DNA of 34,010 bases, taken from assembly GCA_945861575.1 (NCBI GenBank), contig CAMAVD010000024.1:1-34010 (forward strand), read 5' to 3'. Under the pieces are notes generated by a model that saw nothing but the letters and a program-made list of their open reading frames with translations, did no database searches and was not told where the DNA came from. Shown here in pieces: positions 3-20,284 of this stretch (position 1 is its first letter; every line of letters begins with the position of its first letter). The position numbers and the translations under genes are program-made. The DNA comes from Akkermansia muciniphila. GTDB taxonomy: Bacteria; Verrucomicrobiota; Verrucomicrobiia; Limisphaerales; UBA11320.

Positions 3-3000
3 GTCACAGCGGACTTGACCAATCGTCAGGCCGCGCTAGTGCCTTTCCAGCCCTATTCAGGCCGCAACACGAATGCCCCTAGCTTCAGTGCATTGGACGC
101 AGCTTACCAGCGGAACGTGCATCTGATGATCGTTTCCTTAGGAAACTGCTTCGGCATCTCGACAGCCAGTGTTTGCGATACGCGCGTGCCGTGGTGGGAC
201 GATTACGTTGATCCTTGGGTTCCCTTGCCCGACAGGCCCACGCCCCTGTTCAACATTCTGGAACAGGTGTATGGTTTGCCCGGCTTTAATCGGGCTGGCA
301 TATACGATGGACCCAGCCAAGGACAGGCCTATGAGGTGATTGGCGAGCATCCTTTCGACCCGATGGGAAGCCTGCTGGATCGGTCTGGCAGTCCCTATGA
401 GTATTTGGAGGATAGGGTTGAGAACTCTCATTTTAGCGCGATCAACAAGCTGATCTTGGGGTGGATCCCCACCAACTATGTTACCGTAGCACATCGCAGC
501 ACGACCAACCGACTCTACGCCTTTGATGTTCCCTTTTTGAAGCCGGGCAATATCTATGCTCTTGGGGTTCGTAAGGACGTGCTTCGCACGAACTGGATCG
601 AGTACCGTAAAAAGGTCACCGTCAACCCTTGGGTTTCGCGCGGCGTGTTGATCAACTGGGGTCCGTGGCCTGGAGCACTCTCGACCTGCCAGTTGGTGGA
701 CACGACGCCAGGTTCGGTGCCATCGAGGAGCCCCTTCCGCGGTTTCCAGGACAGCGCTGTCGTGTTGGGTAGGACCTTTTCTGATGAAGTTAATAATGTC
801 CACATCACACCTACCGTAAGCGGTGCCGATGATCGAGGGGATTGGATCGATGTGGTCGTCCAGATGGGAAGCTTCCCAGAAAATCGGTCACCTAATTTCA
901 CGCTTGAGGCAAGCAGCTTAAGGGTGGCGACAAATGAGCCCATCACATTTACTGCTCGCAATGTGGTAGACCCTGACGGGGATGCGCTCTCCTATTTCTG
1001 GGATTTTGGTGACGGGAACTTCGGTGACAATGTCGCCACCGTCCAACATTCGTTCCCGGGTGGCCAGTACGTCATTCGTTGCGAAGTGTCGGACATGAAA
1101 GGGGGAGTCAGGAGCAGCCACGTTTTGGTCACAGTGGGGGATGTTTCTACAACGCGGGTCTACGGGCGCGTCATTGATATTGATCGCAATCCTGTTGCGA
1201 ATGTTCGGATCGCGGCTCTCGGCTCGAACGACACCGTTGGCTTCACCGACTCGGATGGCCGGTACACCCTGGCCGGTATCCCCTCGGGCGCTCTGACCAA
1301 TCTTGCACACCTTTTCGGGTATAACATCCTGCCTCACAACTTCAACAACCCATCGCCTCTCACCGATGGGACCGCGGCCGAACTGAACTATGTCGCAGTG
1401 CCCAAGATCACCGTTAACGTAGAAACAGTGCGGAACGCCGATTTGTCTGGAAATCCGATTGGTGCATTTCGCTTCAAGCGGAACGGGGTGCTGAGTCTGC
1501 CGTTGATCGTCTCGTATCGCCTGGACGGGGATGCCGCCTTCGGCGTTGATTATCGTGCGAACCTCCTGCCGCCGAATGATTTCACCGATGGATTTACCAA
1601 TATCTTCTTCTTCGTCTCAGGATTGGGGAGGGGCCGGTTCTTCAATTCGTTCGACGATGTTTCGCACTCCATCACCATCCCTGCTGGCTCGGACTCAGTT
1701 GATTTGCCCATCCAGGCTCTTCCCAACCCATTCGGTGGAGGGACCCGTTCCCTGATTGCCAGTGTGGTGCTGCAGTCGACCGCCCTTGTATTGACGAACG
1801 GCGGCAGCTTCCCCGTTTTCGTTCCGGATTGGCATTTTGATATCTGGAGGCCTGGAACCACTCCGATTTGGGGTCAATTTCAGTCGCAGGAAGCCTACAA
1901 CATCCGTAGCGGCGAGGCCTTCATGGCAGTGATTGATCCCGCGCCGGAGTTGCGGCCGCTGGTTTCACTCCAGGCCATTGGAGACTCCGTTAACGAAAAC
2001 GGATACGATGCGGGACAAATCCTATTTGCGTTGGACCGGCCCATCGGGCGTGATTTGAGGGTTCGTTACGCGTTGACAGGCACGGCCAAGGTGGGTGTCG
2101 ATTTCGTTCCTCTCTCGGGCGAGGTCCGCATTCCCGCCGGCAGCCTGGCGAGCGTGCTTCCTATCTTTGCTCTGCCAAACAATTTGGTGGAGGGAAATCG
2201 GGACGTGACTATCACGATCGCTGATGGGACCGATTACGATGTCCAGAATGCCAGGGCCACAGTGTTCATCGTGGATGATGACCTTCCCGCCGTCAGGGTC
2301 TACTCCTTCAACGAGGCTATCGAGGAGTCAACGAACAGTTTTGGCCGTTTCAGCGTGTTCCGGAGTGGGGACCGGTCCGTGCCTTTGGTCGTGGATTATG
2401 TTTTTGAGGGGAGCGCAACGAACGGAATCGATTTTAGGGCGGTTTCAGGTTCGGTTACCATCCCAGTTGGCTCTGACCAGGCGTTTGTTGCTATTCGACC
2501 TTTTGAGGATGGGCGAAAAAACGATCCGAAGAGCGTCGTTCTGCAACTCTCCCCAAGCCCGCGTTACAACGTTGATTCACCAGCCTTGGCCACCATGAGT
2601 ATTCTGGATGATCAGACCTCATTGGTGCGAATCCACGCAGCAGTGCCTGGGGTGTTGTCGACACCCGAGGTAGGAACCGGATTTGAGTTGCAATTGACGA
2701 GGGTTGGACCTGCCACCAATGCACTCTTCGTGAACTACGATGTCGGAGGCACCGCTGGGAATGCTGCTGATTATCGGTCGATTGGACGGGGAGCGGTCAT
2801 TCCTGCAGGGGTCGCATCTGTGCGAATACCCATAGTCCCGCTTGCAGACGCCTTGGCCGAGTGGGTCGAGACGATCACGGTGCGCTTGACGCCGGGCGAG
2901 GGCTATCAAATAGATCCAGCTTTCAGCGAGGTGGCTGGCCAGATTGAAGCTTCCGACTATGGTCAATTTCCGAGTGCAGAGTTCACAGTGGAACAGACGG

Positions 3001-6000
3001 TGGTGAAGGAGTCTGATGGTCGGTTGACGGTAGGCATCCATCTCACCGACGCACATCCCCAGGTGGGGGAAGTTGCCGTGGTGGAATATCGCGTTGCGGG
3101 TGGATCCGCCGTCTATGGGCAGGACTATCGTATTATTTCACCCTACGCGGTGGGTTCTACGGGATTTGTCTCCTTCATTTACGATACAGGTGATCCCCAG
3201 AATGAGACCTCGGTAAGTCTGACACGCAGTTTCACCGTAGAGCTCTTGGACAATAAGCAGAAACAAGGGCCTCGAACTATCGCGTTTGAGTTGGCTTATC
3301 CAGAGATTCCCGATCCCGTCTTTATCAGCGATTTCCGCTTCATCATCGACACCAACGGTTTCTTTGTTCCCTCGGAGACCGTGCAGACAACAAACACTGT
3401 TGTGGCTCCAAAGTTCTTCAGGCTTACCACCCGACGGCTGCACTGGATCACCATCTTGGATGATGACGCTGCTGAGGTTTCAATCGAAGCCGTTAAGCCG
3501 TATGCCTACGAGAGCGGTGTGAGGGAAGGCGCCTTCCGAATTTTGAGGACGAGCACTAATGGCTACGCTGACTCGATGAAAGTGCAGTTTGACGTGTCCG
3601 GAACGGCCGCTGGAGCTAGCGATTATGAGCAGCTACCTCGTTCTGTGGTAATACCTGCGGGACAGCGCGAAATCATCCTATCGATGATGCCCGTGGACGA
3701 TTTGGTCTACGAGGGACCAGAGACAATCACGGTGACTTTGGTGACGGCTGAGGGTGCCACAATCGGTGTGAACAAGAAGGCGAGCGTCACGCTGGTCGAT
3801 GACGATGGGACCATCGAGTTTGCCGAACGGGAATTTACATTCTCCGAGCGTGGAGGCCTCGTTCGGATTCCGGTCCGACGCTCTGGGGATGTGTCACTGG
3901 CGCAATCGGTCAGCGTTTTCTTCCAAGCCGGCACGGCCGCTGAGAACGCGGACTATACCGCTAACTCGGGCATCCTCAGCTTCCAGCCAGGCGAGCAGCT
4001 TAAGTACGTGGAGATCTCCCTAGTTGACGATCAGGTGGCGGAACTGCCCGAATCGCTTGAAGTTCGTTTGGCCAATCTCAGCGGAGGAGTCTCGTTGGCT
4101 GGGCAAACGCGCACTACGGTCATGATTCTTAGTGACGACACTGGTTTTGTTTTCGCTACCAATCGCTATGCTGTCGCTGAGTTTGATGGAGGCATCGAGG
4201 TGCAAGTCTTGCGCACGGGTGATGCGGATGGAGGTGCTTCCGTTCGGGTAGGCTTAGTGACGAATGCGGGTGATTCGGCAGTGCCGGGGGTGGATCTAGT
4301 CGATGTTTCGACTGTGTTGACCTTCCTCGACGGGGAGACTTCGAAGAAACTCACCCTGGTGCCGATCGAGGACGATCTGCTGGAAGGTGACGAGAGCATC
4401 ACTCTTGTTTTGACCGATCCCGTGAATGGGGTGGTCTCCCCGGAGACATCAAGCGCCAAGCTGCTTGTGCGTGATGATGATTGCACCCTGGAGCTCTCGG
4501 CCGCTGAGACGCGTGTCTGGGAGCAGCACAAGACGGTTCGCGTGAAGGTAATCCGAAACGGTGGGGCGTTGAATGCAGTCGCTGTGGACTATTCTACGAG
4601 CGATGGAACCGCGTGGGCTGGCAAAGACTACACCGCCAAAACAGGGACTTTGATCATCGATGGCGAGCAAATCTTCCGTCGAACGGACGGGTCGGGCCTT
4701 CTGGGTGTTCGCGAAGGGTCTACAGAAGGGTTCATCGACATTCCCGTCTTAGACGATGCGATCGGCGAACCTAACGAAAACTTCACCGTCCAATTGAGCA
4801 ACGTCCGTCCCGTGTCGCCCAGTCGGCGCCTGGAGTCTGTGACTTTGACCCAACCGACACGGCAGGACGTCGTGATCTTGGACAACGAGCAACCGGGGCG
4901 AGTTGACCATGAATATGCTCCTAGCTTGGTCTTTACCCAGCATGAGGATGGAGACACGAACGGTCTGGCGCTCGAAGCACCCGTCAACGCCATTGCGCTG
5001 CTGCCCAATGGGCGTGCGATCATTGGTGGTGAGTTTACCGAGATCAACGATTTCACCTATCGACACATCGCGCGTCTGAGCTTGGAGGGCGAGCTGGACC
5101 TTGGCTTTGACCCAGGGGTGGGAACAGACGGCAGTGTCAATGCCCTCGCAACAAGCGACGATGGCAGGATCTTTTTGGCGGGAGCCTTCAGAACGGTGCA
5201 CGGTGTGAGTCGATCCGGCATTGCACTACTGACCCAGGAAGGAGACCTAGATCCTGTTTTTGATCCAGGTCTGGGAGCCGAGGGTAAGGTGGCTCGAGCG
5301 TTGGCGGTGCAGGAGGATGGATTCGTGCTGGTGGGGGGTGAGTTCACAAGGTTTGACGGTCTGAGCCTGTCGAATCTCGTGCGGTTGACCGCCAGGGGAT
5401 TCGTAGATCTGAGCTTCAAGCCTAGCATCGGTGGCCCCGTCTTGGCCCTAGCGGTGCAGGGAGACGGCAAGATTATTGCAGGCGGTTCCTTCACGAACGT
5501 GAACGGCAGTCCGCTCGCTGGTTTGGTGCGATTGAATGCGGATGGATCCGTTGACAACTCATTCCGGATCGGGAAGGGCGTAACGGGAGTGGTGAATGCG
5601 CTTACGATTCAACCGGATGGCCAGCTCCTGGTCGGTGGTCTGTTCACCTCCATTAACGACAAGCCCTCGGCCAATTTGGCCCGCTTGAGCGTCCTGGGTG
5701 CTCTAGATCAGTCCTTCCCTGCGGGTTCTGGGCCGAACGGCCGGGTGAGAGCGTTGGGAGTCCATCGGCTCGGGAAAATTTACATCGGCGGTGATTTCAC
5801 ACAACTGAATGGGGAGCCTCAAAATCGCTTCGCGCGTTTACTTGCGGATGGTTCGGTGGACGCTCGGTTCGATCTCGGTGCGGGTGCTGACGCTCCTGTT
5901 AGGGCAGTGCTCGTGGCTGCGAACTCTGCCGTCTACCTTGGTGGGGAGTTTACCACGATTGATGGGGAGAGCCGCCCGCGTTTTGCCCGGGTACATGGCG

Positions 6001-8114
6001 ATGAGAAGCTCGCCTTGGTTGGTGTTGAGTTCATCACCAGTTCCCTGACAGTTCCGGAAAATGTGGGAGCCGTGAACTTTACGGTCCGCAGGGTGGGGGA
6101 TCCAACACTTGGATTCAGCGTCGATTTCAGTACAACGGAGCTTAATAGCACCGCCACGGCGGGTCTGGACTATGTTGCAACGAATGGCACGTTGACCTTC
6201 TCCCCTGGCGTGCTCTCTCGGACCTTCCGGGTGCAGGTTCTGGATGACCTGATCGGAGAGGCTACCGAGTCGATCCGAGTGCAGTTGGACAATGCTCCCT
6301 TCGGTGTCGATTTGGGCGGTGCCACGCGGGCGACGATCCATGTGCTCGACGATGAGGCCACTGTGGGGCTGACCACAGCAACCTACACGGGGAGCGAGGC
6401 TTCTGGACAAGCCATCTTGACCTTGATTCGCAAAGGAAATACCAACACCACCGCTTCGGTTTTCGTCAACATCGCCAGCGGGACGGCCCTTTCAGGCCAG
6501 GACTTCGATGGGTCTGCGATTCCAGTTTCTTTCGCTGCTCTTGAAGTGACCAAGAGTGTCGTGATCCCCGTATTTGAGGATCGCATGCAGGAAGGTGCCG
6601 AACAGTTCACCGTAAGTCTGGCGAACGCCTCGGCGGGACTGCTGATTGCGAATGGAGTGGCTGCTGTAACCATTGTGGACAATGACTTCGACACCATCGT
6701 TTTCGTTGGGAGCGCGCTCGCCGTTGAAGAGAACGCGAACGGAAGCATTGACCCGGGCGAAGTCACCACAGTGAATGTGGCACTTCGCAATATTGGCACT
6801 GCTGACTCAACCAACCTGACGGCGACACTTCTACCGCAGGGAGGCGTTGTGCCGATTATCGCCACGGCCACCTATGGACCGATGGCAGGAGAGTCGAGTT
6901 CCGTGACCAGAGGCTTCACCTTCCGTAACACGCGAAGCGATGGCCAGGCTCTTGATCTGGTTCTCGATCTTAAAGACGGCAACCGCAGCCTTGGTCGGGT
7001 CCCGTTCCAAATGTCGGTTGGGCGCCGAAGCCTTGCGTTCTCTAACCATGAGCGCATTTCCATCAACGACCTCGGGAAGGCGACGCCTTACCCTTCACAG
7101 ATCGAGGTCGCGGGTGTTTTGGGCCCTTTGGTTAAGGCCACGCTTACGTTTGAAGGTGTGGTTCATTCTGCTCCAGGCGATCTCGATGTGATGTTGGTCG
7201 CCCCGAACGGGGAGGCCTCGGTGGTGATGTCGGATGCGGGTGGTACGTTCCGGCTGAACGGCGTTACGTTCACCCTGGACGACGATGCTCCGGCTCCGCT
7301 TCCGTCCTCTTCCGCGATCGCGAGTGGGACCTATCGTCCGATCAACTATGTCGTGAATGAAACGTTCCCGGCACCCGCGCCTACCGCGCTGATTGGCAAA
7401 CAGGATCTGAGGTTCGGAGGCACCGATCCGAACGGGATTTGGTCTCTCTTTATTCGGGATGACAGCGGCGGGGACACCGGATTTATCACCAACGGCTGGA
7501 CACTCACCTTGATCACCAGTGGCCAGGTGCTGCCTACTACAGATCTGGAGGTGTCGGTTCGCGAATCATCGAGTCCTGTCCTCGCGGGTCAGGAATTTAG
7601 TTACATCATCAAGGTGTCAAACAACGGCCCAGCACCGGCTACGGGTGTTGTGCTCAGTCAGACGCTCCCGCTCGCGGGTGAGGCCAGCTTCGTCCGGGCC
7701 ACTGGAGGTGCTGTATTTGCTGGGGGTAACGTGACGGCTGCTCTCGGAAGTCTGGCACCGGGGGCGAACTCGGAGCTTGTCGTCACGGTCAAGACCATCG
7801 GGGTCGGACAACTCCGCTCGACTGTGAGTGTGGCGGGCAGCGAACCTGAGTTGGTGCCAGCCAACAATCTGGTGCAGATCGTCACCACGGTTTCGAACGT
7901 GGTTGCACCGGTTCCTCTGTCAGTCTCGTCGGATGGAGCTACGGTGACCGTCTCCTGGTCCTCGGTAGGTGCCGGCGTGCTAGAGACCTCGAGCGATCCG
8001 GGGCACGGCAACTGGAGCCCGATTCGAGTGCAGCCGGTGCTTGCTGAGAATCGGTATCAAGTGGTCCTGCCCGCTTCGAACCACTGCCAGTTCTATCGAC
8101 TCAGGCAAAACTAA
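3..8114 (+). CDS. Giant secreted multidomain protein, 5'-truncated by the window edge: metalloprotease-like N-terminal part, PKD, carboxypeptidase-regulatory-like, about 9 Calx-beta, 7 delta-60 repeats, 2 Calx-beta, proprotein convertase P-domain, DUF11-like, C-terminal FYRLR module
   Basis: The frame is open to the left edge; the listed start at 15 is TTG and upstream codons read VTAD. Motifs read in the translation: INKLILGW...NWIEYRKKV...RGVLINWG (resembles the C-terminal part of M6/M11-type metalloproteases), DGDALSYFWDFGDG (PKD), repeated 'G.DY....G.....G' Calx-beta signatures, 'VNALA..DGRI..GG.F' repeats, GDLDVMLVAPNG...DPNGIWSLFIRDDSGGDTGFITNGWTL (P-domain). Confidence 0.9.
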   Translation, partial: VTADLTNRQAALVPFQPYSGRNTNAPSFSALDAAYQRNVHLMIVSLGNCFGISTASVCDTRVPWWDDYVDPWVPLPDRPTPLFNILEQVYGLPGFNRAGIYDGPSQGQAYEVIGEHPFDPMGSLLDRSGSPYEYLEDRVENSHFSAINKLILGWIPTNYVTVAHRSTTNRLYAFDVPFLKPGNIYALGVRKDVLRTNWIEYRKKVTVNPWVSRGVLINWGPWPGALSTCQLVDTTPGSVPSRSPFRGFQDSAVVLGRTFSDEVNNVHITPTVSGADDRGDWIDVVVQMGSFPENRSPNFTLEASSLRVATNEPITFTARNVVDPDGDALSYFWDFGDGNFGDNVATVQHSFPGGQYVIRCEVSDMKGGVRSSHVLVTVGDVSTTRVYGRVIDIDRNPVANVRIAALGSNDTVGFTDSDGRYTLAGIPSGALTNLAHLFGYNILPHNFNNPSPLTDGTAAELNYVAVPKITVNVETVRNADLSGNPIGAFRFKRNGVLSLPLIVSYRLDGDAAFGVDYRANLLPPNDFTDGFTNIFFFVSGLGRGRFFNSFDDVSHSITIPAGSDSVDLPIQALPNPFGGGTRSLIASVVLQSTALVLTNGGSFPVFVPDWHFDIWRPGTTPIWGQFQSQEAYNIRSGEAFMAVIDPAPELRPLVSLQAIGDSVNENGYDAGQILFALDRPIGRDLRVRYALTGTAKVGVDFVPLSGEVRIPAGSLASVLPIFALPNNLVEGNRDVTITIADGTDYDVQNARATVFIVDDDLPAVRVYSFNEAIEESTNSFGRFSVFRSGDRSVPLVVDYVFEGSATNGIDFRAVSGSVTIPVGSDQAFVAIRPFEDGRKNDPKSVVLQLSPSPRYNVDSPALATMSILDDQTSLVRIHAAVPGVLSTPEVGTGFELQLTRVGPATNALFVNYDVGGTAGNAADYRSIGRGAVIPAGVASVRIPIVPLADALAEWVETITVRLTPGEGYQIDPAFSEVAGQIEASDYGQFPSAEFTVEQTVVKESDGRLTVGIHLTDAHPQVGEVAVVEYRVAGGSAVYGQDYRIISPYAVGSTGFVSFIYDTGDPQNETSVSLTRSFTVELLDNKQKQGPRTIAFELAYPEIPDPVFISDFRFIIDTNGFFVPSETVQTTNTVVAPKFFRLTTRRLHWITILDDDAAEVSIEAVKPYAYESGVREGAFRILRTSTNGYADSMKVQFDVSGTAAGASDYEQLPRSVVIPAGQREIILSMMPVDDLVYEGPETITVTLVTAEGATIGVNKKASVTLVDDDGTIEFAEREFTFSERGGLVRIPVRRSGDVSLAQSVSVFFQAGTAAENADYTANSGILSFQPGEQLKYVEISLVDDQVAELPESLEVRLANLSGGVSLAGQTRTTVMILSDDTGFVFATNRYAVAEFDGGIEVQVLRTGDADGGASVRVGLVTNAGDSAVPGVDLVDVSTVLTFLDGETSKKLTLVPIEDDLLEGDESITLVLTDPVNGVVSPETSSAKLLVRDDDCTLELSAAETRVWEQHKTVRVKVIRNGGALNAVAVDYSTSDGTAWAGKDYTAKTGTLIIDGEQIFRRTDGSGLLGVREGSTEGFIDIPVLDDAIGEPNENFTVQLSNVRPVSPSRRLESVTLTQPTRQDVVILDNEQPGRVDHEYAPSLVFTQHEDGDTNGLALEAPVNAIALLPNGRAIIGGEFTEINDFTYRHIARLSLEGELDLGFDPGVGTDGSVNALATSDDGRIFLAGAFRTVHGVSRSGIALLTQEGDLDPVFDPGLGAEGKVARALAVQEDGFVLVGGEFTRFDGLSLSNLVRLTARGFVDLSFKPSIGGPVLALAVQGDGKIIAGGSFTNVNGSPLAGLVRLNADGSVDNSFRIGKGVTGVVNALTIQPDGQLLVGGLFTSINDKPSANLARLSVLGALDQSFPAGSGPNGRVRALGVHRLGKIYIGGDFTQLNGEPQNRFARLLADGSVDARFDLGAGADAPVRAVLVAANSAVYLGGEFTTIDGESRPRFARVHGDEKLALVGVEFITSSLTVPENVGAVNFTVRRVGDPTLGFSVDFSTTELNSTATAGLDYVATNGTLTFSPGVLSRTFRVQVLDDLIGEATESIRVQLDNAPFGVDLGGATRATIHVLDDEATVGLTTATYTGSEASGQAILTLIRKGNTNTTASVFVNIASGTALSGQDFDGSAIPVSFAALEVTKSVVIPVFEDRMQEGAEQFTVSLANASAGLLIANGVAAVTIVDNDFDTIVFVGSALAVEENANGSIDPGEVTTVNVALRNIGTADSTNLTATLLPQGGVVPIIATATYGPMAGESSSVTRGFTFRNTRSDGQALDLVLDLKDGNRSLGRVPFQMSVGRRSLAFSNHERISINDLGKATPYPSQIEVAGVLGPLVKATLTFEGVVHSAPGDLDVMLVAPNGEASVVMSDAGGTFRLNGVTFTLDDDAPAPLPSSSAIASGTYRPINYVVNETFPAPAPTALIGKQDLRFGGTDPNGIWSLFIRDDSGGDTGFITNGWTLTLITSGQVLPTTDLEVSVRESSSPVLAGQEFSYIIKVSNNGPAPATGVVLSQTLPLAGEASFVRATGGAVFAGGNVTAALGSLAPGANSELVVTVKTIGVGQLRSTVSVAGSEPELVPANNLVQIVTTVSNVVAPVPLSVSSDGATVTVSWSSVGAGVLETSSDPGHGNWSPIRVQPVLAENRYQVVLPASNHCQFYRLRQN

Positions 8115-8285
8115 TCCTGAGATATCCCCTGTTTCTTGGTAGCCGTTTCCTCGTGAGGGGGGACGGCTTCCTTTTTGGTTTCATGAGGCGAACGACGGCC
8201 CGCTGGCATCCGTCCCTGCGCCTTCCCAGCCTTCCGAGCGACCCAATTTGTTTCGCTGCGCACTTCATCCGCTTCCAGAGCTACT

Positions 8286-8316
8286 GTGCCACCCTGTCCA
8301 CGGAACTGGGTGGCAC
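8286..8316. terminator. Perfect 9-bp inverted repeat between convergent genes
   Basis: GTGCCACCC-tgtccacggaact-GGGTGGCAC, between the giant gene (ends 8114, plus) and the PaaK-like gene (ends 8396, minus). Confidence 0.4.
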
Positions 8317-8395
8317 TCGGGTGCCTGGAAGGTCCTATGACCCGCTTAGAAAACACTTGATAGTCTATTCTTGTCCCTGGCCGGAGAGGGGTATG

Positions 8396-9475
8396 CTAAT
8401 AAACCCCCTCGACGATTGTTTTCTCGAGGGCGCCGAAGGGGCGGACCTCGGCGACACCGTCCCAGGCGTAGGGAGTTCGTGGCTCACGCCGAATCGCTTC
8501 GTCTCGCTCTAGGAAGCGAGGCATGAAGAATTCCCGTGTCAGAGTGGTAAGTTCAACCCGACCCCACTCGCCGACGTTCTTGAGCTGATGGGTCTCTTTT
8601 GGGTCAACGATGCGTAGGACGGCGCGAGGCTGAGGGGCGTAGTAGGTAATGGAGAAGTTGTCCTCTTCTCTCAATGGAACGCTGGCAGCGAGGCCCATCA
8701 AGGTGTTGCCGTAGGTGGGGTAGAAGCCGATTTTGCCTTCGAGAACCTCCTCGACAATGTAGCGCACGTATTGCGGAGCCATGGTCGTTCCTCCGCAGAA
8801 GACTCCCCGGATTCCTGCCTCGTAGAGATTAACCTTCTCGGCGAGCGCCTCCAGGAGCTTGGGTGTAGTAAAGAGTCCGCTGACCTTGCGGTTCTTGAGG
8901 ATGGTAATTCCCTGATCTACCACATGGTCCATGTAGCTTCTGGCGACTTCAAACTTCTTGTCGGCCAGCACCTTCTTTACGAAGCGCGGATCCAGGTCGA
9001 TGAAGTAGCACGGACTACCCCTGAAGTTGGCTAGATGTTCGATGGCTAGCCGCAAGCGACGGGGTCCTGTTGGACCTACCATCAACCATGCACCGCCCCG
9101 GGGGAAGTGTTCGTCACGCACCTTTCCGGAGAACTCCTCGTAGTCCACCTTGTAATCGGTCCATCCAATCCGTTGCTTCGGCATTCCCGTGGTACCGCCA
9201 GTTTCAAAGATGTTGTAGGGCTTTCCTGCGAAGGCTGCGGGAACCCACACCTCAGGCTGCTCATCGCGCAACCACTCGTCCTGGAAATGGGGGAATCGAG
9301 CGATGAGATCCGCAAAGGAGTTTACTTCCTTGCGGGGATCCCAGCCGACCTTCTTCGCCCAGTTGAGCCAGAATGGGCATCCGGTCTCAGGGGAGAAGTG
9401 CCACTGAATGGTTTCACGAACGTGGGTGTCCAGCTCTTGCTGGGCCTTGGTGATCAATGAGGAATCGACGGACAT
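8396..9475 (-). CDS. PaaK-like (phenylacetate-CoA ligase family) AMP-dependent ligase, short form
   Basis: 359 aa; adenylate-forming P-loop-like motif ETGGTTGMPKQR; overall COG1541-like sequence. Confidence 0.72.
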   Translation of the reverse strand: MSVDSSLITKAQQELDTHVRETIQWHFSPETGCPFWLNWAKKVGWDPRKEVNSFADLIARFPHFQDEWLRDEQPEVWVPAAFAGKPYNIFETGGTTGMPKQRIGWTDYKVDYEEFSGKVRDEHFPRGGAWLMVGPTGPRRLRLAIEHLANFRGSPCYFIDLDPRFVKKVLADKKFEVARSYMDHVVDQGITILKNRKVSGLFTTPKLLEALAEKVNLYEAGIRGVFCGGTTMAPQYVRYIVEEVLEGKIGFYPTYGNTLMGLAASVPLREEDNFSITYYAPQPRAVLRIVDPKETHQLKNVGEWGRVELTTLTREFFMPRFLERDEAIRREPRTPYAWDGVAEVRPFGALEKTIVEGVY

Positions 9476-9514
9476 GGATAAAGTTCAGTAACCGAGTTGG
9501 AGTCGAGGTGCCTA

Positions 9515-11140
9515 TCAGGGCTTGTTGAGTTTCACATCCACCTTAGCCGGCGAGTCGGAACCTGCGACCGAGGAGTCGTGGAATGCGTAGAGATGCGAGT
9601 TGCTAGCGATGTACATCACCCCGTTTGCCACGATCGGGGTCGAGTAAACAGGGGATCCCAGATTGGTTTCGCTCAGGACCTTCTTTTCCTTCGAAACGGC
9701 AAGGATGGTTAAATCGCCGTCCTCATCGCCTACAAAGACTTTTCCGTCGGCGACGAGTGTGGAGCCCCACATGTGTGCCTTCATATCGTGTGTCCAATAG
9801 AGCTTGCCGGTCTCGGCGTCTAGGCAGTGAACAAAGCCGGAAAAGTCGGCTGCAAAGAGCAACCCAGTCGTTGGGTCGATGGAGACGGTTGAGATCGTGC
9901 GATGAATTCCTTTGTAACTCCAAATCGGTCCGGCAGCTGTGATGTCCCCGGTCTTGGTGGCGTCCAAGCAGACGAGATGGCCCACGCCTTCCCCGTGCTC
10001 CGGATCCTGGCCCGTTGCGATATAGATCCGATCCTTATAGAGGACGGGCGTTCCGTTGATCTCGCTTGGGCCCTCTGCCAGGGGATATTTGATCGGCTTT
10101 CCGTCCTTGGATTTGTACTCGGGTGGGTTGGCGTCGAACTTCCAGACGATGGGCAGAATGTTGATGTCATCTTTTTTCTTGGGCTGAACGTCGAAGGCGT
10201 AGCAGAAGCCGTCCCCTCCTCCGAAAAAGACCATCTTCTTACCCTTGACGACGCCGCTGCTCGGCGAACTCCACTGGCCGTGATAAATCCGAGGCCCGAT
10301 GCCAGCCTCATCCTCAGCCACTAGTTCACCTGTCTTTTTCTTCAGGGCTACGAAGCTGGGCGAGAGAGGCGATGGGATGTTGACATGGGTCCAGTCCTGT
10401 CCGTTCGAAGTGCAGGCGAATACGAGGTCGTCGACGATGGACACTGAGCAGTTGGAAGCGTTGTGCGGGAACACCCCAAGCTGGTCCATCATGTCATAGG
10501 ACCAGATGATATCGGCATCCTTGGGGCCGACCGGCACCGGGGGCTTGCCCGCATCTTTGACGAAGTAGGCGGCCTCTTCCTTGAAGGGGCCGTCGTTTCC
10601 GTTGGCCTGTCCGTTGATATCGAGACAGAGAACTTCGCAGCGGCTCGTCACCACGTACACTCGATTGCCTTCGACGGTGGGTGAGGAGAGCAGGCCGAGG
10701 TTTTCCCAATCGTTGACCTTACCCGACTTCAGCTTGGGCACCACAAGCTGCCACAGCAGGTCGCCGGTCTTTTCGTCGAAGCACATCAAAATGCTGCGGT
10801 CGCCCGTATGCTGGGGATCGCGAGGCGATTCGTTGTTCGTGCCAACGAAGACCTTCCCTTGGGAGACAGTGGCGTTGCCGTAGCTCTGCGATCCCAACTT
10901 TGTGACCCACTTCACATTTTTGGTGGTGGAAAGATCAATTTCCTCCGTGCCCTTCTTCATCTTGCCGGGGTCGAACGAGGACGGCAGACCTTTGGCCGGC
11001 GAGTACATGTTGCGCCCCGGGTCGTTGCCGCCCCACTGCGGCCAGTCGAGGGCGATTCCCGCCGAGGGCGCCGTCAGGGATACAGCGAGCGCCAATCCAA
11101 GCGAGGAGTTCAGTGCTGAGGAATGAAAGGCTGGTTTCAT
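9515..11140 (-). CDS. Secreted PQQ-binding-like beta-propeller repeat protein
   Basis: Signal-peptide-like N-terminus; repeated blade motifs such as LLWQLVVP, LVCLDATKTGDI, VHCLDAETGKLYWTHDM, YSTPIVANGVMYIASNSHLYAF. Confidence 0.88.
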   Translation of the reverse strand: MKPAFHSSALNSSLGLALAVSLTAPSAGIALDWPQWGGNDPGRNMYSPAKGLPSSFDPGKMKKGTEEIDLSTTKNVKWVTKLGSQSYGNATVSQGKVFVGTNNESPRDPQHTGDRSILMCFDEKTGDLLWQLVVPKLKSGKVNDWENLGLLSSPTVEGNRVYVVTSRCEVLCLDINGQANGNDGPFKEEAAYFVKDAGKPPVPVGPKDADIIWSYDMMDQLGVFPHNASNCSVSIVDDLVFACTSNGQDWTHVNIPSPLSPSFVALKKKTGELVAEDEAGIGPRIYHGQWSSPSSGVVKGKKMVFFGGGDGFCYAFDVQPKKKDDINILPIVWKFDANPPEYKSKDGKPIKYPLAEGPSEINGTPVLYKDRIYIATGQDPEHGEGVGHLVCLDATKTGDITAAGPIWSYKGIHRTISTVSIDPTTGLLFAADFSGFVHCLDAETGKLYWTHDMKAHMWGSTLVADGKVFVGDEDGDLTILAVSKEKKVLSETNLGSPVYSTPIVANGVMYIASNSHLYAFHDSSVAGSDSPAKVDVKLNKP

Positions 11141-11174
11141 GAGAGGAGGATCTTGGGGTTTGTGATGAGAGCGG

Positions 11175-13517
11175 TCAGTTGGGGGTCACCTTGACGTTGT
11201 CGATGAAGACCCGCATTTCCTGCGGTGAGAATCCGAAGAGCCCTGGCGAACCGCTCGCATGGGCGTGTTGATGGGGGACCTCCGCGGTCCATTTCTCGGG
11301 CTCGGGCTCGTCACGCCTCCATGCTTTTGCACGGATGACACCCGAGCCGTCGGGTGCAATGTCCACGCGGGTCTTTAGGGTATACCATACATTGGGAAGC
11401 CATCGGAAATTGGGAGCATCGGTGGCTGCTGGAACGCGCAGGCGCTCAAGATTGGAGTTCACCTCCAGCTTCTGGTCGTTTCCTTTGAGCACGATAATAT
11501 AGCGTTGGTTGATGACGCCCACCTCCGACATTTTCCGGCGATTTCCTTCGCTCATAATATCCGCCTGAATGGTGTAATTTTTCATGGCAGGGTCTCCCAT
11601 GAATACAGTGGCTCGCTGGAAGAACTTGTTATCGATGGTTTTGGTGAGAGCCTTGGTGCCGTCCTTGTCGCGGACCTCGAATTTAAAGCGTGCTCCAATC
11701 CAGGGGAGCGGAGGGTAGGCGAAAAGTGTGGCAGGTTCCACGGTGTTGGTCGTGGTTTCTGAAAGCGCGAAGGTCTCGAAATCGGCCTGCATCGGAAGGT
11801 TCGGGAGTACGCGTCCCCGCATATAACCCTTCAGGTTTCCCAGGCTTCCTTCAAAGGCACCCGCTGAGGGTATCGCTTCGGGCGAAGCGACGAGTTCAGC
11901 GGAGGTATTGAATGCGCCTTTCATCTGGGCTCGGACACGTGCTGTGGGAGGAATATAGCTGGCCCACTTCAGTGTGGTTGGGTCGATGCCTTCCTTCACG
12001 GTGAGCCCGTGTGCATCCAGTGAACGGACGCGGAAGCTGGCCTTTTCAGAGGGATGTAGGAGAACTTCGGAAGGAATGATTTGCAGCTGTGTGGCGGGTC
12101 CAGCGGCGGGCCATGCTTCCGCGGCGGGTGCGGACGCGAGCCCCGCGCTTTTCCCCGGCTTGCCCCAGCAATACAGCTTTCGGGTGGTTTGCACATAGAG
12201 CTTTCCGTTGTAAGCGACAGGCGTTCCAAAACAGCGGCCGTCTAACGAGATCTTGCTGAGGATCTGGCCTTCTTTGTCGCCGGGCTTGATGACGTAAAAT
12301 CCTCCGCGAGTTCCGGCTTCGGACTCGCCTGCGGTCTTGGCCTCTGGGTCGTCCAGAATCGGCACGTACAACCGTCCATCGGCATAGAGCGGGCACGCGT
12401 TTCTCTGCTCAATACCGAGCTTGATCTTCCAGAGGATTTCACCTGTGTTAGCGTCGAGGGATGAGAGGTCGCCCTTCTCAGCGACCACATAGATCCGGTC
12501 GCCGACCAGGATGGGTGAACTGGTGGACGTGGAGACATCCTTCGCCCAGAGCTCCACCTTGCTGCGCTCCACGACGACCGGCGCATTGGTGGGGTTGTCC
12601 GGTAGGACGTCTGGTATCCGCAGAGCCACCATCTGTCCGAGCTCATAGGGAGTTCCATAAATGGCAATGATCTTGTCTTGCTTATGAACCAGCACAGTGG
12701 CGTTGATGCCGGCGCGGAAGAGGGGAATGCGCCAGAGAGGTTCTCCCGTGCGTGCGTTCACGCAGACGACGCTTCCGTCCCCGGTGGCGGCGTAGAAAAC
12801 GCGGCGTCCTTTGTACCAGCCAAATTGGGGATGTGAAAAAGAATTGTCTTTCGGTCGGTCCCCTGGACCCGAAGCCCAGACGAGATCCCCTGTTTTTTTC
12901 TCGAAGGCGTAGAAGCGGTCGCCCGCCGCGCCTTGAGCGCCCCAGTTGGCCATGATTCCTCGTGTGATCACCAAATCACCATCGATAGCCGGTGTTGCTG
13001 TGCGGCTATTGGGAAAGGTCAGTCGGCCGTAAAGTTCCATCATGGAGTGCTCCCACACCCGGCGTCCGTCGGGAGTAAACGAGGCGAGGATGCCCTGCGT
13101 CCCTTGCATATACACATTCCCCGTCTCGGGATCTATGACGGGGGAGGCAGTCGAATATCGGAGGTAGATCGTGTCGCTTAGAAAATCGCTGTAAAGCTTC
13201 CGCCACTGCTGCTTGCCCGTCTCAGCATCGAAGCATGTGATGCCCTCTTGTAGCTCCGCGCCGTCTTCGAGATAGCCGTTGATATAGAGCCTTCCGTTCG
13301 CGATTACCGGGGTGGATTGCCCAGGAAAATCTGCGGTCCAGAGGGGCTTCTCCGAGCTCAGACTTTCCGGAAGCCCCGTCTCTCGGGAGACGCCCGATTG
13401 CTCCGGACCGCGCCATGAAAGCCACCCCTCCACCTCAGCGAAGGCTACGGCGGGCAATAGGGGTAGAATCAGCGTCGCTAAGAGCGACGCCCGAAATGAG
13501 GAGGTGTTTCGTTTCAT
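11175..13517 (-). CDS. Secreted PQQ-binding-like beta-propeller protein with C-terminal LamG/DUF1080-like domain
   Basis: Signal peptide MKRNTSSFRASLLATLILPLLPAVAFA; repeats ITCFDAETGKQQWRK, VVCVNARTGEPLWRIPL, LSSLDANTGEILWKIKLG; C-terminal 'NKFFQRATVFMGDPAMKNYTIQADIM...FIDNVKVTPN'. Confidence 0.88.
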   Translation of the reverse strand: MKRNTSSFRASLLATLILPLLPAVAFAEVEGWLSWRGPEQSGVSRETGLPESLSSEKPLWTADFPGQSTPVIANGRLYINGYLEDGAELQEGITCFDAETGKQQWRKLYSDFLSDTIYLRYSTASPVIDPETGNVYMQGTQGILASFTPDGRRVWEHSMMELYGRLTFPNSRTATPAIDGDLVITRGIMANWGAQGAAGDRFYAFEKKTGDLVWASGPGDRPKDNSFSHPQFGWYKGRRVFYAATGDGSVVCVNARTGEPLWRIPLFRAGINATVLVHKQDKIIAIYGTPYELGQMVALRIPDVLPDNPTNAPVVVERSKVELWAKDVSTSTSSPILVGDRIYVVAEKGDLSSLDANTGEILWKIKLGIEQRNACPLYADGRLYVPILDDPEAKTAGESEAGTRGGFYVIKPGDKEGQILSKISLDGRCFGTPVAYNGKLYVQTTRKLYCWGKPGKSAGLASAPAAEAWPAAGPATQLQIIPSEVLLHPSEKASFRVRSLDAHGLTVKEGIDPTTLKWASYIPPTARVRAQMKGAFNTSAELVASPEAIPSAGAFEGSLGNLKGYMRGRVLPNLPMQADFETFALSETTTNTVEPATLFAYPPLPWIGARFKFEVRDKDGTKALTKTIDNKFFQRATVFMGDPAMKNYTIQADIMSEGNRRKMSEVGVINQRYIIVLKGNDQKLEVNSNLERLRVPAATDAPNFRWLPNVWYTLKTRVDIAPDGSGVIRAKAWRRDEPEPEKWTAEVPHQHAHASGSPGLFGFSPQEMRVFIDNVKVTPN

Positions 13518-13683
13518 GTCAGCAGAGTGATCGTGATCGATCGCTGGATTGATAATACCTATACGTATGATTTTGGTGCAATGTTCAATTTATCGAATTG
13601 GATTCTGATTGCGGATTGTCCGGGGTGGGGGGAGCAGCTTAGTTTAGGCTCTTTCCTGGGTGGATCCACCTTGGATGAGCATC

Positions 13684-14163
13684 ATGAAATCAAAGAGAAC
13701 ACCCGATGTTTTGCCTGTCGATGCCCCGGAGCGGCGCAGGCTTCCTCCGCTGTTGCGCAAGGCGTGGTATGGCCTAAATCAGGCTTTCCGTCGTCGGATC
13801 GCACACAGTGGCATCACGCCCGACCAGTTTACAGTGATGCGGATCCTCCGCGAGACGGATGGGCTCACTCAACGGCAGTTGACCGGACTCATGAGCAGCG
13901 ATCCTAACACGGTGGCCTCGTTGCTCGAGCGGATGGAGAAGGCTGGGCTGCTCAAACGATCCCCGCATGCACGCGACCGCCGGGCGCATCAGGTCGAACT
14001 TCTTGCGGCGGGGCATCGGAAGTACGAGGAAGTACGTGAGCTTGCCGTGGCGTTGCAAACCGAGGTCTTGCAGGGGGTGGAAGAGTCCGAGAGAGAGTCC
14101 TTTCTCGGTCATCTCGCCTGCGTTGCGGCGGCCTGCCGTGTCGCTGCGGAAATGCGTGGCTAG
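13684..14163 (+). CDS. MarR-family winged-helix transcriptional regulator
   Basis: TVMRILRETDGLTQRQLTGLMSSDPNTVASLLERMEKAGLLKRSPHARDRRAHQVELLAAG matches the MarR wHTH. The ORF track starts at GTG 13660; ATGs at 13675 and 13684 are alternatives. Confidence 0.88.
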   Translation: MKSKRTPDVLPVDAPERRRLPPLLRKAWYGLNQAFRRRIAHSGITPDQFTVMRILRETDGLTQRQLTGLMSSDPNTVASLLERMEKAGLLKRSPHARDRRAHQVELLAAGHRKYEEVRELAVALQTEVLQGVEESERESFLGHLACVAAACRVAAEMRG

Positions 14164-14250
14164 CCCGCACAGTTCATAGCCCGCAACACGATTGAAGTTC
14201 GTCCGCAGTCATTCCTGTCACCGCAGATCCTACCAGCGCGCTGCGGGCTA
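14161..14250. repeat. TAGCCCGCA direct repeat plus inverted copy
   Basis: TAGCCCGCA at 14161-14169 and 14177-14185; reverse complement TGCGGGCTA at 14242-14250. Confidence 0.6.
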
Positions 14251-14254
14251 GAAG

Positions 14255-14276
14255 CAACTCCGGCAAACCGGAGTTG
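14255..14276. terminator. Perfect 9-bp stem/4-nt loop hairpin in a convergent intergenic region
   Basis: CAACTCCGG-caaa-CCGGAGTTG, 92 bp downstream of the MarR stop; no strong T tract. Confidence 0.45.
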
Positions 14277-14368
14277 GGAGAAACTCAACACTCTGTGTTC
14301 CCGCGCGTAGCGCTCATTAGCCCGGATTTTGTGCAGGATTGGCTCGGCCGACGCTTCCTAAGTCTGGA

Positions 14369-15460
14369 TCACTGGGCTGATGCCGTCTTGACGGCCTTCG
14401 TGGGCGCGTTCGTCACTCCCGCTGCGTTGCCCTTGTAATTGGCTGTGAGCCATTCCGCGAGCGAGGTGACCTGATCGGGCGTCAGTGGACCCCCGTGTTC
14501 CTGGGCGAACGCTGGCATAAGCGTCCCTGCTTTGCCTTCCTTGATCCAGTGGGTCCAATACTCGAGATTAGTGGGGTGTTTCAGGGCTTTTAGGTCGGTC
14601 ACCATGGACGCCCGGTGCTCTGCCTCGTGGCAGATGCCGCAGGACGCTGCAAAAAGCTCCTTACCCATCTTACCTTTGCCGGGTTCGACATGGCAGCTTG
14701 CGCAGTCCCCACGAAAAACAATCTGCCGATCCTGGAGAGCGAGCTGCATGTTCTGTGAGCGCCCGGCCTGGGCCTCGAACTGTGGATCGTTCGGAATGTC
14801 CGCACTTACCAGGAGAGACTTGATCCCTGCGGTGGTGTCGACGGTCACTGTCTTGACGAGTTTGCCCCGCTTCCCGCGGAGATCCAGCGTTACGTTAATC
14901 GGGCCATTGCTTCCGGGGCGGATGCGCCAGGGGGTTTCAGGGAGTTTGGCTACGGTGCATCCACAGGAGGTCCGCACCGAGTTCACCAAGACGTCCTTGT
15001 CGCAGACATTGGTCAGCCAAAAACTGAAATGAGCATTCGTTTCGCCGATCTTCGGCTTTTGTTCTTTGGACTCAGAGTCCCAGGCGAGAGACGTAGACGG
15101 AAGGAGGGGGGGAGGCGTCGCGGGAACGATGGCCGTGTTTTTGTATCCGGGAGGAGCCAGTGGCGTCGGGCGGTTGGGAAGCCCGCCATTGGGCCCTGCG
15201 AAGGGAGGGGTGAGCGACGGCTGCGATGGGTTCGCTACCGGTTGCAATCCGCCTGTGCCCACCGGGCGCGGCCTAAGCGGAGTGGTGCGAGTCGGTGGCA
15301 CGGGAGGAAGAAGAACGGGCGGTTTTGGGGCCGTAGGTTTTTGCTGGATCGCCGGACTGCCCGAAGTTTCGGGCTCAGCAGTCAGTCCGTTCGTCGCTAA
15401 ACAAAAGCACGCTGCGCCAAGGATCCCAACCTTGGTGAGAATAAGGCTGCTACGTAACAT
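14369..15460 (-). CDS. DUF1573 domain protein with C-terminal cytochrome c (two CXXCH motifs)
   Basis: DUF1573 signature NAHFSFWLTNVCDKDVLVNSVRTSCGCTVAKLP...; C-terminal CASCH and CGICH, later MPAF; proline-rich N-terminal linker. Confidence 0.85.
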   Translation of the reverse strand: MLRSSLILTKVGILGAACFCLATNGLTAEPETSGSPAIQQKPTAPKPPVLLPPVPPTRTTPLRPRPVGTGGLQPVANPSQPSLTPPFAGPNGGLPNRPTPLAPPGYKNTAIVPATPPPLLPSTSLAWDSESKEQKPKIGETNAHFSFWLTNVCDKDVLVNSVRTSCGCTVAKLPETPWRIRPGSNGPINVTLDLRGKRGKLVKTVTVDTTAGIKSLLVSADIPNDPQFEAQAGRSQNMQLALQDRQIVFRGDCASCHVEPGKGKMGKELFAASCGICHEAEHRASMVTDLKALKHPTNLEYWTHWIKEGKAGTLMPAFAQEHGGPLTPDQVTSLAEWLTANYKGNAAGVTNAPTKAVKTASAQ

Positions 15461-15492
15461 GGATTATACCATAAAAGTAAAGCCAGGATGAA

Positions 15493-15523
15493 GCGAGAAA
15501 AAAGGGTGGTGGTTTTTGCTCGC
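15493..15523. promoter_or_regulatory. Imperfect inverted repeat between divergent genes
   Basis: GCGAG-AAAAAA ... TTTTT-G-CTCGC, in the gap between the DUF1573-cytochrome gene (minus) and the beta-helix gene (plus). Confidence 0.35.
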
Positions 15524-15582
15524 CCGCCGAGCCCAATCTGCGTATCAAGATACCCTAATCATCCTTATTTGTTGTATTCGCC

Positions 15583-17565
15583 ATGACCTCATTGTCGTAC
15601 CTCTGTATTGTTTCTTTCTGCGCAGCGACGGCTCTCGTCGGACGCGCCTCTGTCATCACAGTCACCACAGCAGACAATCTCTCTGACCCCAACGATGGGG
15701 TCACTAGCTTGGTCGAAGCTCTGAATTCCGCTCAGGCAGGCGATACCATTGGATTTAATATATCAGGGGTCGGACCGCACCGTATTGTGACACCATTGGG
15801 TGGGTATCCTTTCATAGTGGTTGATGGACTCACCTTAGATGGCTATTCACAGCCCGGCGCGTCTCCCAACACGCAGCCCTTCGATCGGTCCAACACCGCG
15901 CATCTTCAGATCATTCTAGACTCGTCTGGGGAAGATCTGGCCGAGAGTTCCTATCCCGACCGTCCTGATTTGATCGCCCGGCGATCTACGCGGATGGTTT
16001 TTGAAGATGGGTCCGACATTCCTGGCTATGGGGATAGTGAGAACGGGATTCTCGCCGCGCTGAGCGCAAGAAACTTGGTTGTTCGAGGGATGAGCTTTTT
16101 AGCACGGCACACGGCTGGCAATAAAGCCGATCCTTCCATCTATGGCGTTGCACTTGCCCGGGGTGCTGTGGGGGCGAGGATACAAGGGTGCTGGTTTGGA
16201 CTCCATCCGGATGGCGCTTCCGTTCAGGGCTTCCGATCCAGCGTCGCCGCGTTTCGCTACCGAACGAACCTAGGCGGGGAGTTAGTGGAGCGGTTTTCCG
16301 GAGGATTGATCTTCGGCACGGATGGGGACGGGCATGACGATCGTGCGGAGGCGAACAGTTCCATGGGAGCCTAGATCGCTCTCGCTCTTGAGCTTCCGGG
16401 CGCAAGGATCTCCGGGAATCGGTTCAATGTCTTCCCCGACGGAGTCACTTTCCTCGATGTCCGCACCTATTGCCTGGAGCATCAAATCGGATCGATGGAG
16501 GTGCTTGAAAATGGCAGATCGCGCGAGGGAACGCTTATTGGCACCAACGGTGATGGGGTTTCGGATGCCGAGGAGCGCAATGTCATGGCTCCGGTGAATT
16601 ATCGACGACAGTTCGAGTTCTACGGGGGAACCCCTGCATCGGGAACGGTCATCGCAGGCAATCTGATTGGAGTATCTGTAGACGGACTGACCCTATATCC
16701 ACATGAATTGATTGGCACACCCGATTTAATGTCGATGGATAATGTCGGTGCGGTGCGCGTGGGATCGAATGGGGATGGTCGCAGCGACGACTTGGAGGCG
16801 AATCGAATTCATGGGCTACGCGGAAGCCGCTTTTGCGATGCAGGCCGGGCGGTGCGGATTACCGCGAGGGGGAATGAGCTTTTTGGAAATGGTTTCGATG
16901 GATTTCCGTTTTTACATCGGGATCGGGATCGTGATTTTCTCCTTTATTACGCCGACCTCCTTGAGAACGCCCCTACGTCTCCAGAGGAACTGCAGCCGGT
17001 GCTGTTGGAGGACGATGGGGCATTTCTCGTAGGGCATCTGCCTCCCGTGGATTCTGAACGGTATCCTTACTCCTTAGTGGATGTCTATCTTCGTGACCCT
17101 TCCGCGACGGCATCCGGCCGCGTTCTGCCTGGGAGACATCTGGGCAGTTTTGTTGAGGGCTCCACCCAAGATGGGAATCAGGCTTCCGGTAGCTTCCGAG
17201 TTCGAATCGAAACCGCAGAGCTTCCTGCGGAAGCTGAAGTGGTGGTGGCAGTGACCTACTCGACGACGTTCGGCGCACTGGAGGCAGGTTCGTCTGTGAC
17301 CGGGCCGGTTTCGGCAGGAATGCGCCTGTCGTCGCACCTCGTCGAATCTAAAGATGCACCGACCCTCTCTGCTCACCGGGATGGCGACGCTGTTTTAGTG
17401 TCCTGGAATGGGGTTGAAGGTCTCTTTCGTCTGGAGGTTTCAGAAGACGGCCTCGGAAGTGGGTGGCGTCCCGTGATGGGTGCTGCTGCCCATACGCTTG
17501 GCGCGAACCGTTATCGTCTGGAGACTGGCGGAATGGCTGCGTTCTATCGGCTGCGTTCCTTCTGA
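15583..17565 (+). pseudogene. Parallel beta-helix-type secreted protein interrupted by one in-frame TAG (16372-16374)
   Basis: ORFs 15583-16374 and 16495-17565 are in the same frame (912 nt apart). Codons after the TAG read continuously IALALELPGARISGNRFNVFPDGVTFLDV... into the second ORF. GT(D/N)GDG..D..E.N repeats lie on both sides of the stop. Confidence 0.8.
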
Positions 17566-17628
17566 TCCCGTTGGCTTAGGAATCGTGTCTGGACTTGTCG
17601 GAGGTCCCTCACTAAAAGCGGCAGTGTC

Positions 17629-18399
17629 TTGAGTTGTCGCATGCCATTCTTCTGCCGTCCACTGGGGGTGCTTGGGCCCCCGGAGATTTTGGGCTTTGGG
17701 TCAAGGCCGCGGGGCGCCCACGGGTTCACCTTGATTGAACTTCTCCTGGTGATCGCCATTATTGGTGTCCTTTCCAGCCTCGTGCTTCCCTCTCTGGCTC
17801 GCGCTCGTCGACAAAGCCATCGGGCAGCCTGCCTCAGTAATCTCCACCAACTTTATCTCTCCCTCCACAGCTTCGCGATGGAGAATGACGACGGCGTTCC
17901 TTTGGGCTACCGGGGAGGACGAAAGCAGTGGAATACCATGATCTACAGTGGAACGAATCGAAAGTTTGTCCTCTTCGGGCGTCTCTTCCTTGCCGATTTG
18001 ATGCCGACGCCTCGTGCACTCTACTGCCCTGCGGAGCGTTCCCCGGGACAGGCCTACAACACCTCCGAAAATCCGTGGCCCCCTGGGCAGGGGAGCGTCA
18101 GCGTTCAGGGCGGCTACGGTGGATTGCCTTCGGTGGACTGGGGACAGGAAGACTTGCCTGCTCGCCTTCCGCGCTGGACCGATTATTCCGATCGCGTTCT
18201 GCTGTCGGATACCCTCAGCCTTCCCGAGAGGGTGGATTCACGTCATCGGGAGGGTGTGAATGTTACTGTGGGTGATGGCAGCGCCCGCTGGGTTCCCCGG
18301 GGGGTCTTCCAGGCACCTCTGCAGAAGTGTGAAGGTCTTAGCTCTGCTAACAACGATGCTCAGGATGAGGTTTGGGCTTCCCTGAATCTTCAGCGTTGA
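17629..18399 (+). CDS. Type IV pilin-like / prepilin-type N-terminal cleavage-methylation protein (DUF1559-like)
   Basis: HGFTLIELLLVIAIIGVLSSLVLPSLARARRQSHRAACLSNLHQLYLSL. Confidence 0.88.
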   Translation: MSCRMPFFCRPLGVLGPPEILGFGSRPRGAHGFTLIELLLVIAIIGVLSSLVLPSLARARRQSHRAACLSNLHQLYLSLHSFAMENDDGVPLGYRGGRKQWNTMIYSGTNRKFVLFGRLFLADLMPTPRALYCPAERSPGQAYNTSENPWPPGQGSVSVQGGYGGLPSVDWGQEDLPARLPRWTDYSDRVLLSDTLSLPERVDSRHREGVNVTVGDGSARWVPRGVFQAPLQKCEGLSSANNDAQDEVWASLNLQR

Positions 18400-18431
18400 G
18401 GGGTCATTCCTTTCGTCAACGGAGTCTTCTA

Positions 18432-18463
18432 AGGGCTCGCTGGAAACCTTTCCAACGAGCCCT
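18432..18463. terminator. Long hairpin between convergent ORFs
   Basis: AGGGCTCGCTGGAAA-cc-TTTCCAACGAGCCCT: 15-bp arms with a single non-Watson-Crick position, which would be a G-U pair in minus-strand RNA. Confidence 0.65.
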
Positions 18464-18477
18464 GTGCACCTCTTAAC

Positions 18478-18876
18478 TCAGTCTGCCACGGCGCGGTAGT
18501 ATGCTGCAGGCAGCGTCGCCTCGTCGATGAGGTGGTCGACACCGTCCACCGGCAGGATCAGGGCGGTGCCTCGTGGTTGCCAGGGGCCTTCGAGGGATGT
18601 GGCGCTCTCAATATGCCAGTGGGATCCCGCGACGCCGCTGACGGAGATTTTCACTCGACCTCCCTTTTCACGTTGGATTTCCAACACCGGAGGTTCTGGG
18701 AGCTCGCCTTCGATCTCGACATCAAATCCGGCCATCTGCGCGCCAATGTAGCCGCCCACTGCGTCCGGGCATTTCTTGATGTTGCTGCACTTGGCCTCCC
18801 CGTCTTCGGGATTCACTTCGCCCACATAGGCGAAGAACTCGTATCGGCGGGTGACCATCTCATCCCCTTCGGGCAA
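18478..18876 (-). CDS. Short ORF, probably the C-terminal part of a larger secreted protein
   Basis: The listed start is TTG. The frame stays open upstream to about 18960 without an ATG/GTG. C-terminus resembles the FYRLR-type tail of the 2699-aa protein. Confidence 0.45.
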   Translation of the reverse strand: MPEGDEMVTRRYEFFAYVGEVNPEDGEAKCSNIKKCPDAVGGYIGAQMAGFDVEIEGELPEPPVLEIQREKGGRVKISVSGVAGSHWHIESATSLEGPWQPRGTALILPVDGVDHLIDEATLPAAYYRAVAD

Positions 18877-20147: not shown

Positions 20148-20284
20148 GTGGTAAATCTACTTTCGTAGCGCTGCGCTCCCGGGTCGCCCAAATAATTAGG
20201 TGACGCAGGCCAAGAGCAGCCGTGATTTTCCCTCTAAAGCAAACATTGCCTGATCTTCATTCTTGGGCTAATTCTAAGCAATCG

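Follow-up and report, generated by a model that had tools for sequence, protein, structure and literature searches.

A shared domain at the end of three genes

The window, meaning the whole 34,010-nucleotide stretch of DNA analysed here, is the entire contig C24 of a 5.2-Mb genome assembled in 377 contigs (G000). An original prediction, made from the letters of this DNA, held that three unrelated proteins in the window close with one C-terminal module ending in F/YYR, and that this module might be a sorting or anchoring signal. We found the three tails at the places given for them, each ended by a stop codon; the quoted version of the third begins one residue ahead of its coordinates and is otherwise correctly placed. 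The first tail (7905-8111, + strand) lies 0 aa from the stop of a giant protein of 2699 aa or more (15-8114, +), which carries PKD, six Calx-beta, DUF5122/delta-60 propeller and DUF11 domains. The giant's N-terminus is not visible because the contig start cuts the gene, leaving the frame open at that end. The second tail (17356-17562, +) closes a beta-helix-like protein with a signal peptide (15583-17565, +), a passenger for which Pfam gave no match. The predicted beta-helix protein does have this tail, but its gene is not intact: the single frame is interrupted by an in-frame TAG (16372-16374, +), which may be a mutation, decay or an assembly error and which separates the signal peptide, upstream, from the tail, downstream. 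The third tail (18478-18690, -), which ends AAYYRAVAD, closes a short ORF of 126-132 aa (18478-18876, -; TTG at 18876 or ATG at 18858). We looked for a signal peptide on this ORF and saw none, and the ORF may be a gene remnant.

The similarity of the three tails is real, standing above chance both when a tail was used as the query and when a profile was run with a shuffle control. A single tail as query retrieved the giant's tail (E 5e-4) together with other C-terminal matches in the genome. The third tail scored 23.2 bits (E 1.9e-5) against a broad profile built without it; the highest-scoring of 200 shuffled versions of this tail reached 7.2 bits (E 1.9) against the same profile. The third tail is a divergent but genuine member of the family and the weakest of the three. 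Together, the three tails represent a single unnamed Fn3-like domain of Verrucomicrobiota.

Two other loci in the window deserve mention. Neighbouring ORFs at 8396-11140 (-) carry part of an AMP-binding domain along with a PQQ/ACSF4-type beta-propeller and may be a single split gene. At 20222-24449 (+), a PSCyt2/LamG/PSD1 protein precedes a DUF1501 protein; such gene pairs are typical of the PVC group.

The domain closes many exported proteins of the genome

A profile built from six tails gave 54 matches in the genome, one of which was spurious and was left out. The remaining 53 copies sit on unrelated passengers; the reuse of one module on different proteins is larger than first described. 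The domain spans about 60-70 aa (roughly 65 residues), with the motif W..W..F/YYR and a predicted six-strand Fn3-like sandwich. Fifty of the 53 copies end within 20 aa of a stop codon, whereas 4.9 would be expected from uniform placement on the same ORFs; the feared outcome that matches would be mostly internal did not arise. A C-terminal F/YYR is seen even in matches whose E is near 1. The copies that depart from simple terminal placement in this genome are on contigs C321, where two stand in tandem, C309, and C99, where a pair lies towards the C-terminal end. The last residue varies by lineage, being P in 22 of 47 copies in G000 and 15 of 23 in a second genome (G252), and E in 12 of 32 in a third (G081).

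Signal-peptide-like starts were found by a crude heuristic on 32 of 39 complete carriers and on 21 of 73 background ORFs of the same stretches (p 5e-8); since this background consists of long ORFs adjoining the carriers and may include some spurious ones, the contrast is indicative only. The passengers include bacterial Ig domains, InlB-like repeats, LamG, Ig with a lamin tail, PKD, YHYH, cytochrome/lactonase, DUF11, DUF642/CBM4_9, Hcp and Calx-beta types, and some carriers are short (150-200 aa). The Hcp-domain protein (L082:1107-1934, -, on C64 of G000; T6SS_HCP, E 9e-32) has a signal-peptide-like start and the same terminal domain, and is thus, judging by its sequence, probably a secreted Hcp-like protein with a terminal Fn3-like domain.

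The domain is predicted to be Fn3-like and matches no named family

Searches by sequence against Pfam, NCBIfam and the PDB matched no family, including the curated Fn3 families of Pfam, and we found no description of the domain in the literature searched, many subscription papers being outside the reach of that search. The sole PDB lead by sequence was a weak profile match (E 0.0018) to a Paenibacillus glucanase/chitosanase domain, which we take to be discoidin/CBM32. Structure prediction gave a confident six-stranded beta-sandwich, both for the window tail of the beta-helix-like protein (pLDDT 84.9, pTM 0.70) and for a consensus-like relative (pLDDT 90.5, pTM 0.76). The top Foldseek matches to these models were mostly Fn3 domains (TM about 0.5-0.65), with CBM56 and the Pel3/PelI Fn3 domain also present, all at E 0.06 or worse. 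In the Pel3/PelI pectate lyases, loops of the Fn3 domain are determinants of type II secretion (PMC7949064); given the Foldseek E values, the likeness may reflect a common fold only. It had been foreseen that the module might prove to be a generic Fn3-like fold without C-terminal bias: the predicted fold may be Fn3-like, and the bias is present.

The domain is almost confined to Verrucomicrobiota

We found the domain spread over the phylum and almost confined to it. Within the phylum, 109 of 289 genomes had matches at E <= 0.01, the highest count in one genome being at least 21, and in the best 29 loci from other genomes the distance to the stop is always 0-4 aa (29/29). A DNA pattern scan over 85,000 species genomes gave at least 119 stretches. 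Among the 119 listed, about 100 hold a real domain, nearly all of them titled Verrucomicrobia or Verrucomicrobiota; the carriers from elsewhere among those listed were a single Phycisphaerales chromosome and several MAGs, one of Omnitrophota, one labelled Proteobacteria and others without a name. Bacteroidota and other pattern matches among those listed were chance hits to short ORFs that lack the domain. We used the pattern-scan loci for taxonomy and alignments only, and C-terminality was not scored on them because the pattern itself required a stop codon.

Non-terminal copies retain the F/YYR motif

In the complete genomes G252 and G081, 58 of the 70 matches examined are terminal, comprising 55 whose end is no further than 20 aa from the stop and three in which the motif end lies 26-29 aa past the match; for G081 alone, 32 of 37 examined copies are C-terminal. 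Eight of the 12 non-terminal copies fall in the first 220 aa of their ORF. The domain directly follows the signal peptide in four proteins (L255, L261, L271 and L299) and follows a signal peptide plus TSP3-like repeats in four others (L257, L262, L290 and L292), and the copies on C321 and C309 of G000 resemble these near-N-terminal ones. The repeats of the latter four proteins, and of a fifth (L242) that likewise has a signal peptide and repeats ahead of the domain, are acidic, and more repeats often come after it.

A second group of non-terminal copies is found in the YHYH proteins of the phylum. Here the domain comes after YHYH in 13 of 15 proteins and lies at or near the C-terminus in three or four only, so that it seems to travel with YHYH whatever comes after. 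Two of these proteins (L337 and L344, of genomes G182 and G170, in which the 289-genome survey had no domain match at E <= 0.01) have a Gly-rich, hydrophobic, Arg/Lys tail behind the domain (GGGGGGAPSDWFA...). These tails resemble CTERM sorting signals, and no NCBIfam model matched them above cut-off.

The predicted C-terminal bias therefore stands (50/53, 29/29 and 58/70), whereas the stricter expectation of a domain found only at the C-terminus of signal-peptide proteins fails on the near-N-terminal copies and on those internal to YHYH proteins. Because F/YYR is conserved in the non-terminal copies as well, we ruled it out as a motif of the free terminus; it is best read as the predicted last strand of the fold.

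The domain takes the place of known sorting signals on two passengers

A PEP-CTERM protein of 217 aa (L322) and a 663-aa carrier on C54, both from the same genome, have a common lamin-tail passenger (35% identity, E 2e-31). Past a GD[IT]GSP motif, the former continues into PEP-CTERM and the latter into the Fn3-like domain. Sampling 148 genomes of Bacteroidota, the phylum of Arenibacter, we found six homologues of the passenger of a YHYH carrier, and all six end in TIGR04183. These swaps, seen on two passengers, which is a small sample, indicate that the domain sits where two known sorting signals would otherwise be; the YHYH swap is weakened because YHYH proteins often carry the domain internally.

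Exosortase and GspD co-occur with the domain

The original prediction suggested looking for co-occurring secretion or processing genes, and we found none dedicated to sorting or processing. The T9SS protein SprA was absent from all six carrier genomes tested (0/6), while both Bacteroidota controls were positive (2/2). Exosortase is present in 108 of the 109 domain-positive genomes; a strong EpsH exosortase (E < 1e-32) occurs in 106 of these 109 and in 70 of 180 other genomes (p 5e-27, uncorrected for shared ancestry or genome size). A GspD-like secretin is found in 283 of the 289 genomes, and none of the 57 genomes in which GspD is weak or absent has five or more domain matches (p 4e-6, uncorrected for kinship or genome size). 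In every one of the 51 genomes that have five or more matches, EpsH exosortase and GspD are both strong. Small genomes tend to be without the domain, exosortase and GspD alike, and since the associations are uncorrected for ancestry or genome size we treat them as leads and not as evidence of mechanism; a T2SS-type secretin in the genome would be at most a necessary condition for the carriers to be type II secretion substrates. G000 itself has two exosortases (C40:12957-13742, +, and C21:17151-17849, -) and at least ten PEP-CTERM proteins, which are separate from the domain carriers.

The domain may localise or retain exported proteins through its fold

We give roughly even chances to the reading that this is an end-located localisation or retention domain that acts through its fold. 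In its favour are the terminal bias, the signal-peptide-like starts, the unrelated passengers, the swaps with PEP-CTERM and the T9SS domain, the confident small beta-sandwich with its non-significant likeness to the Pel3/PelI Fn3 domain, and the strong EpsH and GspD of genomes rich in copies. The domain is fused to one end of Sec-exported proteins, usually at the C-terminus and sometimes just after the signal peptide, and once exported, the folded domain would serve as a localisation module. It might hold the attached protein at the cell surface or within exopolysaccharide, or it might help to recruit that protein to the type II secretion system. Recognition would occur through the fold and not through a free C-terminus; this would account for the use of either end and for the retention of F/YYR, the predicted last strand, in non-terminal copies. 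Against this reading count that a plain structural end domain would equally be terminal, go with signal peptides and be specific to a lineage, that in YHYH proteins the domain seems to accompany YHYH irrespective of what comes next, and that no partner gene was found.

Such a structural domain, which would serve as an Fn3-like cap or spacer peculiar to the lineage and play no part in localisation, its position reflecting domain-shuffling habits and the stability of long exported proteins, is a possible explanation to which we assign a lesser probability. It accommodates a generic Fn3-like fold with no significant structural neighbour, the non-terminal copies and tandem pairs, the constant companionship with YHYH whether terminal or not, and the failure to find a partner gene. 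It sits poorly with an end bias far over uniform placement, with the replacement of the domain by a PEP-CTERM or T9SS domain on homologous passengers, and with passengers that are very diverse and include some of 150-200 aa that would hardly need a cap.

A dedicated C-terminal sorting signal, cleaved or anchored by a Verrucomicrobiota translocase or sortase as T9SS CTDs or PEP-CTERM are, is quite improbable: the terminal copies here and in G081, the lineage-dependent last residues, the swaps with both known signals and the exosortase co-occurrence all favour it, but copies lie near the mature N-terminus, two YHYH proteins have another CTERM-like tail behind the domain, F/YYR is kept in non-terminal copies, the domain has neither a transmembrane segment nor a basic cluster, and T9SS SprA is missing from the six genomes tested. 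The original prediction is supported in part: the reuse on unrelated passengers, the terminal bias, the signal peptides and the slot swaps bear it out, and a strict C-terminal sorting signal is not supported, given the non-terminal copies and the two CTERM-like tails.

A bolder version of localisation through the fold is that a new, phylum-wide Verrucomicrobiota route of export or surface anchoring, analogous to T9SS and PEP-CTERM, would use the domain as its targeting signal and read a folded Fn3-like domain at either end; we regard this as unlikely. In the literature searched, we found no Verrucomicrobiota sorting route besides PEP-CTERM described. Around 50 exported proteins per genome have this unnamed domain in common, in an environmentally important phylum, and it stands where other phyla put sorting signals. 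Defining it would help to explain the display or release of very large exported proteins by Verrucomicrobiota, and would let annotation pipelines flag them.

Comparison with known systems

Carbohydrate-binding modules (CBM56, CBM32/discoidin) resemble the domain in a weak CBM56 fold match and the weak Paenibacillus profile match (E 0.0018); these matches are below significance, and no curated family matched. The PelI/Pel3 Fn3 domain (PMC7949064) is likewise an Fn3-like sandwich at one protein end, with a structural match of TM 0.53-0.62 at E 0.1 or worse. It differs in showing no sequence similarity, and it is itself N-terminal and confined to a few enzymes, not a genome-wide module.

The PEP-CTERM/exosortase system (PF07589, PF09721) is closer in habit: its signal likewise closes exported proteins in this genome at the C-terminus, is swapped with the domain on the lamin-tail passenger, and has its exosortase in nearly all domain-positive genomes. 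Membership was ruled out on sequence, as the domain has no PEP motif, transmembrane segment or Arg/basic cluster and its models are all-beta. The Fn3-like tail is a folded domain, unlike PEP-CTERM, and the genome has its own distinct PEP-CTERM proteins.

The T9SS type A sorting domain (TIGR04183, Por_Secre_tail) is likewise a small C-terminal domain on diverse exported proteins, and on homologous YHYH passengers it is found in the same position. Like T9SS C-terminal domains, the Fn3-like domain is C-terminal on signal-peptide proteins (50/53; 32/39), with non-terminal exceptions. Membership in T9SS was ruled out: none of 26 domain members matched TIGR04183 in NCBIfam, hhalign against the type A CTD gave a probability of 0.1, and SprA is lacking from the six carrier genomes tested. 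The Fn3-like domain thus shares placement with the T9SS sorting domain and differs from it in profile, in genomic company and in the non-terminal position of some copies.
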